DNA of 25,172 bases from a virus, in the IMG/VR virus record IMGVR_UViG_3300028283_000162, positions 1 through 25,172 of that record. The stretch is one strand, 5' to 3'. The first letter of the stretch is position 1. Every line of letters begins with the position of its first letter. Position numbers and translations under genes: made by a program. A model generated the notes under the pieces. It was not told where the DNA came from. It did no database searches and was given only the letters and a program-made list of their open reading frames with translations. Positions 6,437 to 24,999 of this stretch are shown here, piece after piece.

Positions 6437-6696
6437 TACAGTGCAAGCTCCCCTTTTGCAAGCCTGTCGACAAGTGTGTCGAACGCTTGTCCCGTGCTGA
6501 TGTTCATCTGGCAAAGTTTTGTGTACTGGACTGGGTTCAACTTGCGCAAAGCCTCGTAACGGTTGTGCGCAATCTCAAGCTCCTTAATCCGGTTGTTTGC
6601 CCATACGATTGCTTGATCGTCGCTATAGCCGTCAGAGTCCTCAATATTGTCTATGGAATCTCGAACCAGCCACTCCCATTTTTCTTGATCCGTCAT
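6436..6696 (-). CDS. Hypothetical protein, helical
   Basis: An 86-residue acidic helical protein, beginning MTDQEKWEWLVRDSIDNIED. No known domain is recognised. The ATG at 6696 has GGAG at an eight-base distance. The gene overlaps the next gene as TAATG, placing it in the replication and accessory operon. Confidence 0.6.
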   Translation of the reverse strand: MTDQEKWEWLVRDSIDNIEDSDGYSDDQAIVWANNRIKELEIAHNRYEALRKLNPVQYTKLCQMNISTGQAFDTLVDRLAKGELAL

Positions 6697-6700
6697 AAAA

Positions 6701-7015
6701 TTATCTCCATTCCAGACTTGTGTAGGTAATCCCCAACTTGCGACAGAGCATAATTTCGCAAAAGGATCCATCAGAGTCCCTCCAGCCTGGCAGCAAGACG
6801 CCGAGAAGATTCGGTGTTTTCGCATCTACCAAATCACAGATGCTGGACAGAGACTGCTTCATGTACCATGCTTCGCTATGACCAGCTTCATGGTCTCGCA
6901 TGGGGTTGTGCACGACAACGTCGCCGTTCTCAATGATTTCTTCTTCGACTTGCGCGAACAAACGCTTGGCAAGTTCCACGTTGCCAGACACCGCCCCAAT
7001 TAGGATAATGTTCAC
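6701..7015 (-). CDS. Nucleoside 2-deoxyribosyltransferase-like protein (DUF4406 type)
   Basis: A 104-residue protein with the Rossmann-like pattern of DUF4406 and nucleoside 2-deoxyribosyltransferases: N-terminal strand MNIILIGAVSGN, the HNPMRDHEAGH segment, a helix with SICDLVDA, and the signature VLLPGWRDSDGSFCE followed by ARK-type helix (IMLCRKLG). The family salvages or modifies deoxynucleotides, and phages use it for base supply or modified bases. The start is GTG at 7015, which overlaps the upstream stop as GTGA. It sits close to the DNA methylase and PAPS-reductase-like genes, which may mean nucleotide or DNA modification. Confidence 0.68.
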   Translation of the reverse strand: MNIILIGAVSGNVELAKRLFAQVEEEIIENGDVVVHNPMRDHEAGHSEAWYMKQSLSSICDLVDAKTPNLLGVLLPGWRDSDGSFCEIMLCRKLGITYTSLEWR

Positions 7016-7437
7016 TTAGCACCGCCTTTCTTTGTCCCGGACTCCATCATCTTCCCGATTCGCTCAAGCGCAGAGTCCATTTCCGAAATGTTGAAATGGG
7101 TCTTTATTTCGTCACGGCATACCGCGTCATCTTCATGGATATAAAGCAGAAATTCAGCATATACACATGGGTTGATTTTTGGAGGTGTCGTTGAGTAATC
7201 CATGCCGTCTGAAATCGAATGGTTAATCAACGTCCAGTGCCGATTTTCAGAAACGAAATACTTTTCACACAAGGCGTTAAGCTTTTTCGCCACCATTGAA
7301 GAGTACCGCTTGTTTAGAGAGTCTCTGATTAGCTTAAAGAGATTTCTTTCTTTTAACCACCAAGCCCCAGCTTGGTTTCGAGCATTCTCATAGTCCTCAA
7401 TAATTGCGTCCATCCAGTCTTTACCGTTCACTTTCAT
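7012..7437 (-). CDS. Hypothetical protein beside the Dam duplication
   Basis: A 141-residue protein of unknown family. It is helical, with aromatic-rich segments (AGAWWLKERNLF, NRHWTLINH) and a Lys/Gly tail. Its ribosome site and first seven codons (MKVNGKD) lie inside a 102-bp direct repeat; the second copy at 8464-8565 lacks the rest of the gene. This suggests it was next to the PAPS-reductase-like gene before a Dam cassette was placed between them. The start ATG is preceded by AAAGGAAAGGAAC. Confidence 0.65.
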   Translation of the reverse strand: MKVNGKDWMDAIIEDYENARNQAGAWWLKERNLFKLIRDSLNKRYSSMVAKKLNALCEKYFVSENRHWTLINHSISDGMDYSTTPPKINPCVYAEFLLYIHEDDAVCRDEIKTHFNISEMDSALERIGKMMESGTKKGGAK

Positions 7438-7518
7438 AACTTTGTTCCTTTCCTTTATGCTGTTAGCGCGGCCTTTACCAGCTCACGTGCCGTGTTGACC
7501 GGGACCGCGTTTACGATC
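7417..7518. repeat. 102-bp direct repeat, left copy
   Basis: Matches 8464-8565 at 101 of 102 positions by direct reading: 96 bases identical, one mismatch (7513), five more identical. It contains the end of the C5-methyltransferase-like tail, the ribosome site and the start of the 141-residue gene. With the right copy it brackets the Dam gene, giving a 1047-bp repeat period. Confidence 0.97.
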
Positions 7519-7520
7519 AT
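7455..7520 (-). pseudogene. 21-codon remnant of a methyltransferase C-terminus
   Basis: An open frame starting at the ATG that overlaps the Dam stop (ATGA). It encodes NAVPVNTARELVKAALTA, the same tail as the PAPS-reductase-like gene. The motif GNAVPxxxAxxL is typical of motif X at the end of C5-cytosine methyltransferases. I read it as the leftover of a lost methyltransferase or of the duplication event; a functional peptide is unlikely. Confidence 0.7.
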
Positions 7521-8410
7521 AATCCCAACTCCAATTCAACCTGATTAATACAGGCGGGTGAAAACCAAATCCGCTCACGCTTGCAGTTTTCACGGCCAGC
7601 CTTGTTCGATTGATTTCCGTAACCACCCGAGGCTTTCCAGACATGCACGTCCCAGTCGGATAACATGTCATGCTCGCCTTCATATCCGCATAATGCAATA
7701 CGCATCTTGCCGCCGTTTGCAAGGCAATACTCGCGCACCTCCGAACGAACATCGTCGTTGTGGTTATATGTCGCGGTGCAGTTGTCGAGATAGGGCGGGT
7801 CAAGGAACATTGCGGTAAGGCCGTTGTGCGTTGTGACGGTCGGGCTTGTTACGCGCTTCCAGTCGCCGCACATGACGCGTACGCGTTCAAGGCGTATGGA
7901 TAGAGCTGTGAAATACTCCGCAAGTGCCACTCCCCTTCCCGCGTCGCCGAGGTGGGTGCTTGCGCGGTGAACGCCCATTCCCGCGTCGCCGAGGTGGGTT
8001 GACTTCTTGCCCCATGCGTTGCCGATGGTGGATGATACGCCCCAGACCCATATCCCTGCCAGCTTGCAGTCGTAATAATCGGGGTCGCGATTCATACGCT
8101 CTATGTGGCCATCCTGCGCGAAAAGCCAGTCCCGTCGCGCTGCAAGGTCAACCTCATTGACAGGCCAGTCGGCGTAATGCGCGACCTGTACGGGGTCATT
8201 CTTCACGGCCCGCCAGAAGTTTGTAAGCCATCCGTCTTTATCGTTTACGGTCTCCACGCCGAAATGCTCCGATGGCCTACCTAAGAGCATAGCTCCTGAT
8301 CCAAAGAAAGGTTCTACGTAATTGTCAACCATTCCGAACCTCTGCCACACGACAGAGGCGACCTTCGATTTTCCACCGAACCACGGGAAAGGAGCTTTAA
8401 GCTGTTTCAT
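7517..8410 (-). CDS. D12-class (Dam-like) adenine-N6 DNA methyltransferase
   Basis: A 297-residue D12-class methylase. Motifs seen: PFPWFGGKS (residues 7-15) and VEPFFGSG (32-39) for S-adenosylmethionine binding, and catalytic DPPY at 204-207. The product is expected to methylate adenine in GATC or a related site, protecting phage DNA or altering regulation. Residues 137-158 contain two STHLGDAG repeats, 14 residues apart, encoded by identical 22-bp units. The start overlaps the upstream 25-codon chimeric ORF as ATGA. The gene sits between two 102-bp direct repeats, so it looks like a recently acquired or duplicated cassette. Confidence 0.93.
   Translation of the reverse strand: MKQLKAPFPWFGGKSKVASVVWQRFGMVDNYVEPFFGSGAMLLGRPSEHFGVETVNDKDGWLTNFWRAVKNDPVQVAHYADWPVNEVDLAARRDWLFAQDGHIERMNRDPDYYDCKLAGIWVWGVSSTIGNAWGKKSTHLGDAGMGVHRASTHLGDAGRGVALAEYFTALSIRLERVRVMCGDWKRVTSPTVTTHNGLTAMFLDPPYLDNCTATYNHNDDVRSEVREYCLANGGKMRIALCGYEGEHDMLSDWDVHVWKASGGYGNQSNKAGRENCKRERIWFSPACINQVELELGL
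7936..7999. repeat. Tandem 22-bp repeat inside the Dam gene (42-bp period)
   Basis: Identical 22-bp stretches at 7936-7957 and 7978-7999 encode the two STHLGDAG segments in frame. The target-recognition part of D12 enzymes lies in this central region, so repeat number could change by slippage and alter specificity; this is inference. Confidence 0.85.
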
Positions 8411-8484
8411 GGTTCCACCCCCATAAAGGTGATTGTTCCGTCCTCTGCAATGAAAGCCCCGCCGTCTTTACCGTTCACTTTCAT
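8407..8484 (-). pseudogene. 25-codon chimeric micro-ORF before Dam
   Basis: Starts with the same ribosome site and first seven codons (MKVNGKD) as the 141-residue gene, then switches to GGAFIAEDGTITF, the C-terminus of the small Cys-rich gene at 9779-9958. It ends at the Dam start as ATGA. It is a scar of recombination between the two loci that now serves, at most, as a translational coupler for Dam. Confidence 0.7.
8429..8468. repeat. 40-bp direct repeat, copy 1
   Basis: Matches 9789-9828 at 38 of 40 positions. Both copies encode GGAFIAEDGTITF. One precedes Dam and the other precedes the PAPS-reductase-like gene, suggesting the two genes are alternatives at one ancestral position. Confidence 0.9.
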
Positions 8485-8565
8485 AACTTTGTTCCTTTCC
8501 TTTATGCTGTTAGCGCGGCCTTTACCAGCTCACGTGCCGTGTTGACCGGGACCGCGTTTCCGATC
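8464..8565. repeat. 102-bp direct repeat, right copy
   Basis: Partner of 7417-7518. It covers the last 22 codons of the PAPS-reductase-like gene and the ribosome site plus first codons of the chimeric micro-ORF. Homologous recombination between the copies would remove Dam as a 1047-bp circle and restore a PAPS reductase to 141-residue-gene junction. Confidence 0.97.
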
Positions 8566-9764
8566 TCTGTTGAACAATCATCATCAAAGAACAGGCTCTT
8601 TTGAATCGCCCCGTCTTTCCGTATCTCTTCAAATGGAAGGTCTGCCCTCTGTTCTTTACCATCCCAGCCGTTTGGCCATGTGTTTGCCTCAATCATCTGC
8701 TCTATAACCTTCCGTTCCTCTGCATCGATAAGCAAATATTCAAGGTCTTCATCCGGCTTGTTCGCGTTGATCTCGTCTTGAATCGCTATGACTCGGGCCA
8801 GCCCCATTCGACGCGCTTCCATGGTCAGCGGCCCCATACGGTTTGGATTGGTGCACATCGTTCCATCCTTGCGAAGTTCCTTGCCTGTCTTTCGCAGTCG
8901 GTTAGCCGGAAGCTTCAATTCAGCGTAAAGCTTCCTCAAACCTGTGAGAGGTCTTAGATACTCCCAGCGTTCATTCTGTAGGAGCGTCTCAAGAGCAGTG
9001 TCACGGCTGGCAAGGTTGCATCCGACGCACCCAGTACGTGCGTTGATCTCTTCTGCTTCATCCCCGCCGTATGACTCGGCTACGCGCTCGGTAGGATAGC
9101 CACCAATGGGAGCCCAGTTCCTTAACCAGTTCCAGACATGGCACACGCGCCAATGCAGGATCGGTGCAAGCGTATCGGCTACCGATTCAGGCGTTGACAC
9201 CTGAAACCATCCTTGACCGCATTCCGCGCCGTCACGTCCGCAACTCAAAGCAATACGTGCGTCACGCGCCGCGCTTTCCCCGACTCTCACGCCTGTCAGC
9301 ATGAGAAACTTCTTGCCGTTCTTTTCGCGCAGTTCCTTCAAGGCGTTCATCATGGGTTCAATCTTGATTTGTGACGTGCACCAACGGAAGGTGTTTGACG
9401 GAGGGGGAACACCTCGACCGAACATGTAGACAAAGAAGCGATCTTTCATTTCAGGCAAAACAACGTCGCACTGGTAGCCTTTTGAGCGTAGAACATCCAT
9501 AACGCCCATGGCTGCATTGCGAAGAGGCGGCAACTCCATCCGCGTATCTGCATAGAGCAATCGAAGCTCTTTAGGCCGTGGCACCTTGCCTGTCTCAATC
9601 AGTTGAGGTATGAGAGTAGCCACCGCGCTTGAATCCTTGCCACCGCTGTAGCAGATGACCCAGCTATCAAACAGGGTCGCGTATGTCTTCAAAGACTCAA
9701 TCGTCTTTTCAATTCCGGCTGTCATGGTCTGCCTGTATCCGTCGAATAAGGTTGGTTGTGTCAT
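8502..9764 (-). CDS. PAPS-reductase/DndC-like protein with a C5-methyltransferase-like tail
   Basis: A 420-residue PP-loop ATP pyrophosphatase of the PAPS-reductase/DndC group. Visible: PP-loop SGGKDS (40-45), RWCT (127-130), VRVGESAARD, and Cys175, Cys182, Cys246, Cys249, the last pair in GCVGC, possibly an iron-sulfur site. In this family known roles are sulfate assimilation (CysH) and DNA phosphorothioation (DndC), while phage versions are mostly uncharacterised. Residues 401-420, IGNAVPVNTARELVKAALTA, resemble motif X of C5-cytosine methyltransferases and do not belong to PAPS reductases. The ATG at 9764 has GAGGAG upstream; a 6-codon longer start is less likely. No dndA, dndD or dndE is visible. 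Confidence 0.85.
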   Translation of the reverse strand: MTQPTLFDGYRQTMTAGIEKTIESLKTYATLFDSWVICYSGGKDSSAVATLIPQLIETGKVPRPKELRLLYADTRMELPPLRNAAMGVMDVLRSKGYQCDVVLPEMKDRFFVYMFGRGVPPPSNTFRWCTSQIKIEPMMNALKELREKNGKKFLMLTGVRVGESAARDARIALSCGRDGAECGQGWFQVSTPESVADTLAPILHWRVCHVWNWLRNWAPIGGYPTERVAESYGGDEAEEINARTGCVGCNLASRDTALETLLQNERWEYLRPLTGLRKLYAELKLPANRLRKTGKELRKDGTMCTNPNRMGPLTMEARRMGLARVIAIQDEINANKPDEDLEYLLIDAEERKVIEQMIEANTWPNGWDGKEQRADLPFEEIRKDGAIQKSLFFDDDCSTEIGNAVPVNTARELVKAALTA

Positions 9765-9778
9765 AGGTGTAGTTCTCC

Positions 9779-9958
9779 TCATAGAAACGTGATTGTTCCG
9801 TCCTCTGCAATGAAAGCACCGCCGCCTTCACGTGCGCACATGTCGAGCTGGCACTTATCGCAGTCATCTTTGCAGCCCTTGGCTTCGATTCTGCGTTCCA
9901 GTTCCTCTGCCACCTGCTCGGGTGTCATGGCTGGTTTCAGGTTCAGTTCTTTACTCAT
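9779..9958 (-). CDS. Small Cys-rich protein (59 residues)
   Basis: A 59-residue protein coupled at both ends: its ATG overlaps the upstream stop as TAATG and its stop is next to the ribosome site of the PAPS-reductase-like gene. The centre has GCKDDCDKCQLDMC, a Cys-x3-Cys-x2-Cys-x4-Cys set likely to bind zinc or an iron-sulfur cluster. The C-terminus GGGAFIAEDGTITF recurs before Dam. It could be a partner of the PAPS-reductase-like protein, which is only inference from adjacency. Confidence 0.7.
   Translation of the reverse strand: MSKELNLKPAMTPEQVAEELERRIEAKGCKDDCDKCQLDMCAREGGGAFIAEDGTITFL
9789..9828. repeat. 40-bp direct repeat, copy 2
   Basis: Intact copy within the 59-residue gene, partner of 8429-8468, two mismatches. 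It appears to be the donor or the ancestral form of the sequence left before Dam. Confidence 0.9.
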
Positions 9959-17031: not shown

Positions 17032-18000
17032 ACTGTTCACAAATCAGACGCTGGCGAGTCTGCCAAGACTGCGGACCGCCCCGGACTTATTAAGGCCTTG
17101 GACGAATGCCGGAAGCGCAAAGCGGCCTTCTTCATCGTCCACAGGCTGGACAGGCTTTCGCGCAATGCTACAGACGGGCTGGCCATCCGCGCAAAGCTGG
17201 CCTCGCACAAAACTCAGATTCTAAGCGTGTCTGAACCTGTGTCAGACGATCCAGCCGGACAGTTCATGACCTCCATCATGTTTGCTACAGCTCAATTCGA
17301 TAATGATATCCGGTCCGCTCGATCCCGTTCCGGCATGACTGCCACGACAGCCAAAGGAGGGTGGAATTATCACGCCCCGACAGGTTTCAAGATCGCTAGG
17401 AGGTCAGACGGCCTCCCAGTGCTCGAAATTTCAAGCCCAGACGCTTCTAGGCTGTCCACCCTGCTAAAGACATACGCCAGCGGTGCAAGCTCACTGACGG
17501 CCACTATAGCGGGTTTCAAGGCCATGGGGTTTGACCGAGGGAAAGCGAACCGGATATTCCACGAGCCCATTTACGGAGGCATCATCCGGACACGGCTTTC
17601 AAATTCTGACATACTTGCCGCGTTCCCTGGATATGTCACGCCTCAAACATGGTATAAGCTGGAAGCCCGTTATGCGGATGACAAGCGCAAACCAAGGAGG
17701 GACAAGCCGTCAAACGCTGGGTTCCACCTGTCCCTGATAACATGCTCGGTGTGCGGATCGCGGCTTAAAGGTTCAAACGCACGGTCAAAGAATGGATGTC
17801 TGTACCCTTACTATCGCTGTCCTAACGGTCACGCCAATATCAAGGCATCCGACCTTATCAACGCGACTGAAGAGGCGATTGCCACGCTTGCCACAATATC
17901 ACAGAAGCTTGCCACGGCCATTGAAGTGGCGACAAATTACCTGCTGAAGAAGGGAAACGACCTAAAGAGAGTCGGCTTGGTACAATGGAAGACCATGTGA
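17032..18000 (+). pseudogene. Large serine recombinase lacking its catalytic N-terminus
   Basis: The open frame runs from the codon after a stop at 17029-17031. It begins in the middle of the catalytic domain: SAKTADRPGLIKALDEC, VHRLDRLSRN and QFDNDIRSARSRSGM match the central recombinase motifs, and a recombinase domain (KGGWNYHAPTGFK) and zinc ribbon (CSVCG and CPNGH) follow. The first 45 or so residues, with the nucleophilic Ser and catalytic Arg, are missing and no start but TTG at 17098 remains. The C-terminus is also shorter than in typical large recombinases. It is the only large plus-strand gene and is almost surely inactive. Confidence 0.8.
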
Positions 18001-18037
18001 TCCTTATTGGCTGCCTTTTTTTTCCTGCAAGGCAGTC

Positions 18038-18208
18038 GGAGACGTCCTCTCCGAGTTCATGCAACAGTACCCGAACCGCAGAATGACCGTCCTTTGTGGA
18101 CACACCCATGGGGGCGGGACCTCTCAGATCTTGCCCAATCTGACCACTGTAACAGGGCCTGCCGAATATCGGAGTCCCGTCATTCAGACTATTTTCGACT
18201 TCGAGTAG
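18038..18208 (+). pseudogene. C-terminal fragment of a metallophosphoesterase
   Basis: 56 codons in frame: GDVLSEFMQQYPNRRMTVLC followed by GHTHGGGTSQILPN and a closing strand-rich region. GHTH is the conserved metal-binding motif near the end of calcineurin-like phosphoesterases. The upstream two thirds are absent: the reading frame upstream is not coding-like, so the gene was cut. Remnant left by deletion or integration next to the broken recombinase. Confidence 0.7.
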
Positions 18209-18233
18209 CCCTGCCATTTCGGTTCTTCACGGT

Positions 18234-18386
18234 TTGCCGGAAAAATTAGTCGAAGGGACCATTCTGGATGTGAATGTCGCTGGCGCGTATTCCGCAAATG
18301 AAGGTCGAAGCATTATAGAGTTCAAGATGTGTGGATATTCTGAAATACGGGTTGCCCGTTACAGGCCAAATATAACGGAAAATTAG
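18234..18386 (+). pseudogene. Unknown plus-strand coding remnant
   Basis: Fifty codons with coding-like composition: EGTILDVNVAGAYSANEGRS and SIIEFKMCGYSEIRVARYRP. No ATG start, only TTG, and no convincing ribosome site. It overlaps the next remnant in another frame. I do not recognise the family. Confidence 0.45.
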
Positions 18387-18535
18387 CGGAATTAGGGCAA
18401 AATGAGCTAAAGAACGCCGATCCTCAAACATATTATGATCGCACCGTTGCCCTTGTAATTTTTAAGATGGCGCACCTAGAAAGACTTATGTCCAAACTTG
18501 AGGCGGTTGCAGCATCTCTTAAAGGTGCCGCATAA
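18344..18535 (+). pseudogene. Unknown plus-strand helical remnant, frame-shifted
   Basis: An open frame without a start codon near its beginning: KLAELGQNELKNADPQTYYD, then ALVIFKMAHLERLMSKLEAV, an amphipathic helical protein ending at TAA. It follows the previous remnant by a minus-one frame shift, so both may be pieces of one broken gene. No slippery heptamer was found at the junction. Confidence 0.45.
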
Positions 18536-24294: not shown

Positions 24295-24999
24295 TTACAG
24301 CTTGCTCAAAATCGGACATTCAAGCGGGGTTGAAAGCCTGTCGACCGATGGGGCTATGTACTGCGCGTCCAGTTCAATTCCAATCGCGTACCTGCCTAAA
24401 GACCTAGCCGCCAGCAGGGTCGCGCACGAGCCCGCGTAGGGGTCAATAATAAGGTCTTCTGGCGTGGTGTATGACTCAATCAGCCACCTCATGAGTGCAA
24501 CCGGCTTTTGCGTTGGATGAATACGCTTGATCCCTGACTCGGTAGCCTTTATCCATCCGTCCCAATAATTCCTGAAGATCGTCCGATGGGCGTGGAAACT
24601 TAACCAGATGTCTTCGTAGTCCCCGATATGGTTGGTGTGGCAGGGGCCTATGTTGCAGGCTTTCCGTCCTCCCTTATGAGAGCAGCGCTTGTCCCAGATG
24701 ATCCACGACCCAAGGAGCGGCAGGTATGTATGGTAGTGCTGGCCACCGAACAAAACGCACTTGAACCCCAACAGGTGGCTTGGATCAAAAGGCGCGTCAT
24801 CCCCGATGATCGGGCGCGGGTTGCTGTTGTGCACCCACTTGATGCCATAAGGAGGGTCGCTGATGATAACGACATTCTTTGTCGCTGGTATTTTTTTGAG
24901 AATATCCCGGCAATCGCCATGGATAAGTGCAATGTTCGCATCCTTGTAAGATGCTTCCAGATTGATGCTTGTAAGGGCATCATCTAATGGGCTTTTCAT
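24295..24999 (-). CDS. Beta-class N4/N6 DNA methyltransferase
   Basis: A 234-residue methylase of the PF01555 N6/N4-type. N-terminal ALIHGDCRDILKKIP, catalytic SDPPYGIKW (DPPY), then a central specificity region, and HPTQKPVALMRWLIESYTTP with DPYAGSCATLLAA, the SAM-binding FxGxG-like motif. The order (catalytic DPPY first, SAM motif last) marks the beta class. Ribosome site AAGGAG is seven bases upstream. It probably protects phage DNA or marks it; with Dam it makes two adenine- or cytosine-N4-modifying enzymes in this window. Confidence 0.92.
   Translation of the reverse strand: MKSPLDDALTSINLEASYKDANIALIHGDCRDILKKIPATKNVVIISDPPYGIKWVHNSNPRPIIGDDAPFDPSHLLGFKCVLFGGQHYHTYLPLLGSWIIWDKRCSHKGGRKACNIGPCHTNHIGDYEDIWLSFHAHRTIFRNYWDGWIKATESGIKRIHPTQKPVALMRWLIESYTTPEDLIIDPYAGSCATLLAARSLGRYAIGIELDAQYIAPSVDRLSTPLECPILSKL

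Follow-up and report, generated by a model that had tools for sequence, protein, structure and literature searches.

A phage DNA methylase gene between near-identical direct repeats: a probable scar of mosaic recombination

A DNA methylase gene flanked by direct repeats raises the question of whether a phage carries a genetic switch or the trace of an exchange between genomes. We consider this question for a locus in IMG/VR record IMGVR_UViG_3300028283_000162, a partial virus contig from one metagenomic assembly; the window, that is, the whole stretch of DNA analyzed, spans 25,172 nt. Two 102-bp segments, copy B (7417-7518) and copy A (8464-8565), lie in direct orientation with a spacing of 1047 bp and agree at 101/102 positions, the sole mismatch being 7513 A / 8560 C; the computed chance expectation for such a pair is approximately zero. 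An earlier note on this DNA had reported the same coordinates, identity, and spacing, and recomputation bears them out. The near-identity of the copies suggests either a recent event or copies kept alike by exchange. In our judgment, the unit is probably the scar of a mosaic recombination that joined two alternative occupants of one slot in tandem, in a hypervariable phage locus.

On the minus strand, the gene order is small ORF, PAPS reductase, copy A, D12 methylase, copy B, 141-aa gene, and DUF4406 gene. By position, the features are:

6701-7015, minus strand: DUF4406 gene, next after the 141-aa gene
7012-7437, minus strand: downstream 141-aa gene, function unassigned; copy A holds a duplicate of its opening 7 codons
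7417-7518, minus strand: repeat copy B, content as copy A; joined by an ATGA overlap to the 3' end of Dam and running into the intact 141-aa gene
7517-8410, minus strand: putative D12-class N6-adenine DNA methyltransferase ("Dam"), 297 aa; motifs FPWFGGK, EPFFGSGA, and DPPY
8412-8463, minus strand: small-ORF 3'-end relic, fused behind 7 codons of the 141-aa gene; similar to the small ORF
8464-8565, minus strand: repeat copy A; the PAPS ORF codons for IGNAVPVNTARELVKAALTA and stop (C5 motif X tail), followed by the ribosome-binding region and codons 1-7 of the 141-aa gene
8502-9782, minus strand: PAPS-reductase/DndC-like protein, 426 aa; PHROG 12882, 5.4e-147; DndC-like; the C5-methylase tail makes up roughly its final 20 residues
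9779-9958, minus strand: small 59-aa ORF, 5' of PAPS, with an ATGA stop/start overlap; source of the relic before Dam

The interval between the repeats had been described as essentially one D12 methylase gene; that gene is there, but so is the relic of the small ORF, about 45 to 50 bp long. The geometry proposed for deletion or amplification is right: the repeats flank one methylase gene and are nearly identical, so the unit is deletable and amplifiable, and homologous recombination could plausibly remove the 1047 bp. With the flanks joined in silico, PAPS reductase and the 141-aa gene are both intact, as had been foreseen, but the deletion would restore nothing: the PAPS stop at 8502 lies within copy A, PAPS is complete there, and Dam separates PAPS from the 141-aa gene, breaking neither. 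Deletability follows from the structure and is no sign of a programme.

The composition of the repeat points to its origin. Read on the minus strand, it comprises the final 20 codons of a C5-cytosine methyltransferase, a ribosome-binding site, and the 141-aa gene's opening 7 codons. The tail peptide gives weak matches to Pfam C5-methylase profiles, at the extreme end of the model, and matches "IGNAVPVN" of the HaeIII methylase, which is C5 motif X; such short matches are insufficient alone, and the decisive evidence is the comparison with a related phage contig, L078. There, a complete 457-aa C5 methylase ends in the identical tail peptide, and its 3' end is identical to copy A at 67/69 positions of DNA, whereas the aligned part of the helicase gene agrees with the window at only ~72% (binomial P ~7e-8 for 67/69 against 72%). 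Within the tail, the differences of L078 and of a second relative, L003, from copy A are synonymous. With the full-length C5 protein as query, both repeat copies of the window and the L003 tail are matched, and nothing else of C5 turned up in these two records. The block was found only in these phages (three phage lineages, one locus so far), and no tail was found in bacterial genomes; nor were any bacterial relatives of the terminase confirmed.

The PAPS gene carries this tail in 1/74 viral-contig PAPS relatives, namely L003, the closest; it is absent from the other 73. In 4/74 relatives (L009, L023, L057, and L059) a C5 methylase directly follows PAPS, which makes a PAPS fusion through loss of a neighboring C5 gene reasonable. 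The in-frame fusion of the PAPS/DndC-like protein to the 20-residue motif X tail occupies 8502-8561 and is kept in L003; the PHROG 12882 profile covers only residues 9-398 of the 426. In copy B, translation reveals a 21-codon mini-ORF, MIVNAVPVNTARELVKAALTA and stop, equal to the C5 tail in frame and opened by the terminal ATGA overlap of Dam. Both tails start at one identical ATCG; this common start would need either a pair of coinciding deletions or a single deletion and a secondary exchange.

The gene enclosed by the repeats belongs to the D12 family. The 297-aa protein matches PF02086 (MethyltransfD12) at 4.7e-8, with 33.5 bits against a cut-off of 22 and only residues 10-75 aligned, and PHROG 56 at 6.4e-26, spanning residues 1-288. 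The FxGxG-type SAM-binding segment EPFFGSGA and the catalytic LDPPY are present and are invariant or aligned among phage homologues, to which the enzyme is 36-47% identical; its C-terminus is complete beside these relatives. The best homologues (40-47% identity) have other neighbor genes; no close relatives were found in viral contigs, and a sequence search for relatives of solved structure returned none at E 0.001. The earlier name, Dam methylase, holds for the family match but outruns the evidence on specificity: the curated Dam model TIGR00571 scores 36.2 bits, far below its cut-off of 114.85. "Dam" is used here for a predicted D12-class enzyme, with GATC as its target unproven. Under-representation of GATC (86 observed vs 108 expected) was considered as a sign of specificity, found weak, and not used. 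From what is known of orphan phage methylases, we take guarding phage DNA against restriction to be its likely role. Inside the gene, a 29-bp imperfect direct repeat with 42-bp spacing (7929-7999) encodes THLGDAGxGV twice; a similar repeated segment is seen in the phage homologue L124. A second DNA methylase gene, of the N6_N4_Mtase family, lies at the opposite end of the record (24295-24999).

The stretch between copy A and the start of Dam supplies a further trace. Over ~50 bp it most closely matches the small ORF's 3' end: 47 bp agree at 91% with 9785-9831, and 60 bp at 83% with 9772-9831. Together with the preceding codons of the 141-aa gene, the relic forms a chimeric 25-codon leader, MKVNGKDGGAFIAEDGTITFMGVEP and stop, whose stop overlaps the Dam start codon as ATGA; the same kind of stop/start overlap joins the small ORF to PAPS. 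Had Dam once stood in the PAPS slot behind the same small ORF, both the relic and the ATGA overlap before Dam would result.

From these features we infer the following order of events. Two related phages would have carried alternative alleles of one slot, smallORF-PAPS-tail-141 and smallORF-Dam-tail-141, the tail being what was left of the 3' end of a C5-cytosine methylase formerly in that slot. One illegitimate unequal crossover, joining the 141-aa gene start in one allele to the small-ORF end in the other, would have occurred near 8462-8464, where similarity is only patchy (GTAAAGAC / GTGAAGGC). Its product, PAPS-tail-141start::smallORFend-Dam-tail-141, would be the arrangement in the window, with Dam and PAPS in tandem and the block common to both alleles (tail and 141 start) doubled into a 102-bp direct repeat. 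Dam would be translated through the ATGA overlaps and would probably modify phage DNA to resist host restriction; the homology of the repeats may let RecA, or the phage Sak4 and exonuclease, delete or amplify Dam as a by-product and not as a programmed switch. No smallORF-Dam-tail genome was found, a degenerate pattern for the small-ORF end matching L003 only, so this parent is hypothetical.

Related phages place the locus in a changeable neighborhood. L003 is 93% identical to the window in the PAPS region and 81-86% in other parts; its PAPS-tail is followed by 135-aa, 52-aa, and 88-aa genes, with neither Dam nor the 141-aa gene, and it has a single tail copy where the window has copies A and B. 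On this comparison, L003 reads as a diverged relative with another downstream gene, not as an excision product. L080 and L077 are 99.4% identical to the window across 6.6 kb and share the last 45 codons of the 141-aa gene, of which no further relatives were found in the search; the end of this gene is followed there by a relative of the 52-aa gene of L003, where the window has DUF4406. The replaced segments are 6604-7011 in the window, with DUF4406, and L080:141-560, with 52-aa and zinc-ribbon-like 66-aa ORFs, and the exchange point falls inside a 129/108-aa gene. In L078, a DUF4406 relative stands just before the C5 gene. The L080 contig ends at 7151, inside the 141-aa gene and short of the Dam site, and that of L078 ends 48 bases after the C5 tail (L078:13095-13142); such assembly breaks are consistent with strain variation at this locus. 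The neighborhood is a mosaic hot spot, a hypervariable gene-cassette locus.

The phage encodes a Sak4-like annealing protein and an exonuclease; Sak4 of HK620 anneals strands diverged by up to 20% (PMC5928155). Within this partial record, the sole site-specific recombinase-like ORF aligns to the 499-aa integrase of L078 only from residue 42, and the N-terminal stretch that holds the catalytic serine in the L078-type integrase was not found in it. This serine-integrase-like ORF, which lacks the first 41 residues of its L078 counterpart, lies within 17038-18457 and looks decayed, with only a weak fragment of the C-terminal part in another frame.

A transposon reading was rejected: no transposase was found at the site, and the repeats are sequence of the flanking genes. 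The repeat is no transposon end, att site, or structured element.

The first alternative is that the unit works as an excisable or amplifiable cassette, with recombination between the repeats regularly removing or multiplying Dam and yielding mixed methylated and unmethylated populations. The near-identical repeats, the genes intact after excision, the phage's own annealing and exonuclease genes, and a relative that has the PAPS tail but no Dam are all in keeping with it, and a collapsed multi-copy array would also fit the tail-141start-smallORFend junction. The comparison of relatives proposed by the earlier note cuts both ways, however: Dam is absent from L003, but no sibling differing by the 1047 bp alone was seen, the near-identical L080 contig ending too soon. 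Moreover, gene-end scars explain the repeat fully; scanning the repeat and region for promoters and terminators gave no signal over background, no invertible or att-like features were found at the repeats, and this partial record yielded no dedicated recombinase or recognition site for a cassette and no complete serine integrase. We consider regular excision or amplification unlikely. The repeats carry no recombinase-site features, and the stronger claim of a switchable methylation cassette, a purpose-built on/off switch, is not supported.

A second alternative is that the assembler joined two strain variants, PAPS-tail-141 and Dam-tail-141, through their common tail. The metagenomic source of the contig and the ends of two relatives' contigs at or near the locus lend this some weight. 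Against it, the junction at 8462-8464, where the opening of the 141-aa gene meets the small-ORF end, is unique; the common tail alone cannot create that sequence, which must therefore have existed in reads, and the path keeps intact ORFs with overlapping stops and starts. An assembly chimera is, on balance, distinctly unlikely. It is very unlikely, in our estimate, that the tail left by loss of the C5 gene serves as a recurrent docking point for DNA-modification genes, with zero, one, or several Dam units shifting methylation by homologous recombination. Finally, the 102-bp block, or a 69-bp core, might be a functional element kept for moving genes, for instance a regulatory RNA or the target of a recombinase, given that it recurs at the ends of PAPS, Dam, and C5 genes and in L078 far exceeds the helicase gene in conservation; yet in L078 the block is the plain coding end of a full C5 methylase, the differences between copy A and the L003 and L078 tails are synonymous, RNA folding of the repeat is unremarkable (z -0.54), an Rfam scan of the repeat and region gave no match, and these phages alone carry the block, all of which renders such an element highly improbable.

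If the unit is a scar of mosaic recombination, the locus captures phage mosaicism under way, with the source gene of a boundary sequence still visible. It would show how two alternative modification genes become adjacent and leave direct repeats that resemble a designed cassette, and it cautions that repeat-flanked phage genes should not be read as switches. It would also add a case in which a C5 methylase, a PAPS/DndC-like gene, and a D12 methylase take each other's place in a single slot, a turnover presumably driven by host restriction pressure.

Three known systems invite comparison. With the D12-class (Dam-like) orphan phage methylases of PHROG 56, the present enzyme shares the fold family, the motifs, and the position as an orphan early or accessory gene; it differs in scoring under the curated Dam cut-off, with its target sequence unproven. 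Boundary (linker) sequences at phage module junctions, as described in work cited in PMC3029335, are likewise short similar blocks with different flanking genes in each phage; unlike those sequences as so described, the block here is a recognizable relic of a coding gene, at one locus and in three phage lineages so far. The closest precedent is found in the Cluster I mycobacteriophages, where the adjacent genes 67 and 68 of Island3 have common 3' ends of ~60 bp, and where its close relative Brujita carries just one copy, itself recombinant, and is missing the extra gene, a difference ascribed to short-repeat recombination (PMC3029335). The present locus, in which the source of the shared end can be named, is of this type: two neighboring genes carry the same 3' end, and a single copy is present in the Dam-less L003. 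Unlike in Island3 and Brujita, the block here extends over the ribosome-binding region into the next gene's start, it is traceable to the 3' end of a C5 methylase, the extra gene is a DNA methylase, and the single-copy relative is more diverged.
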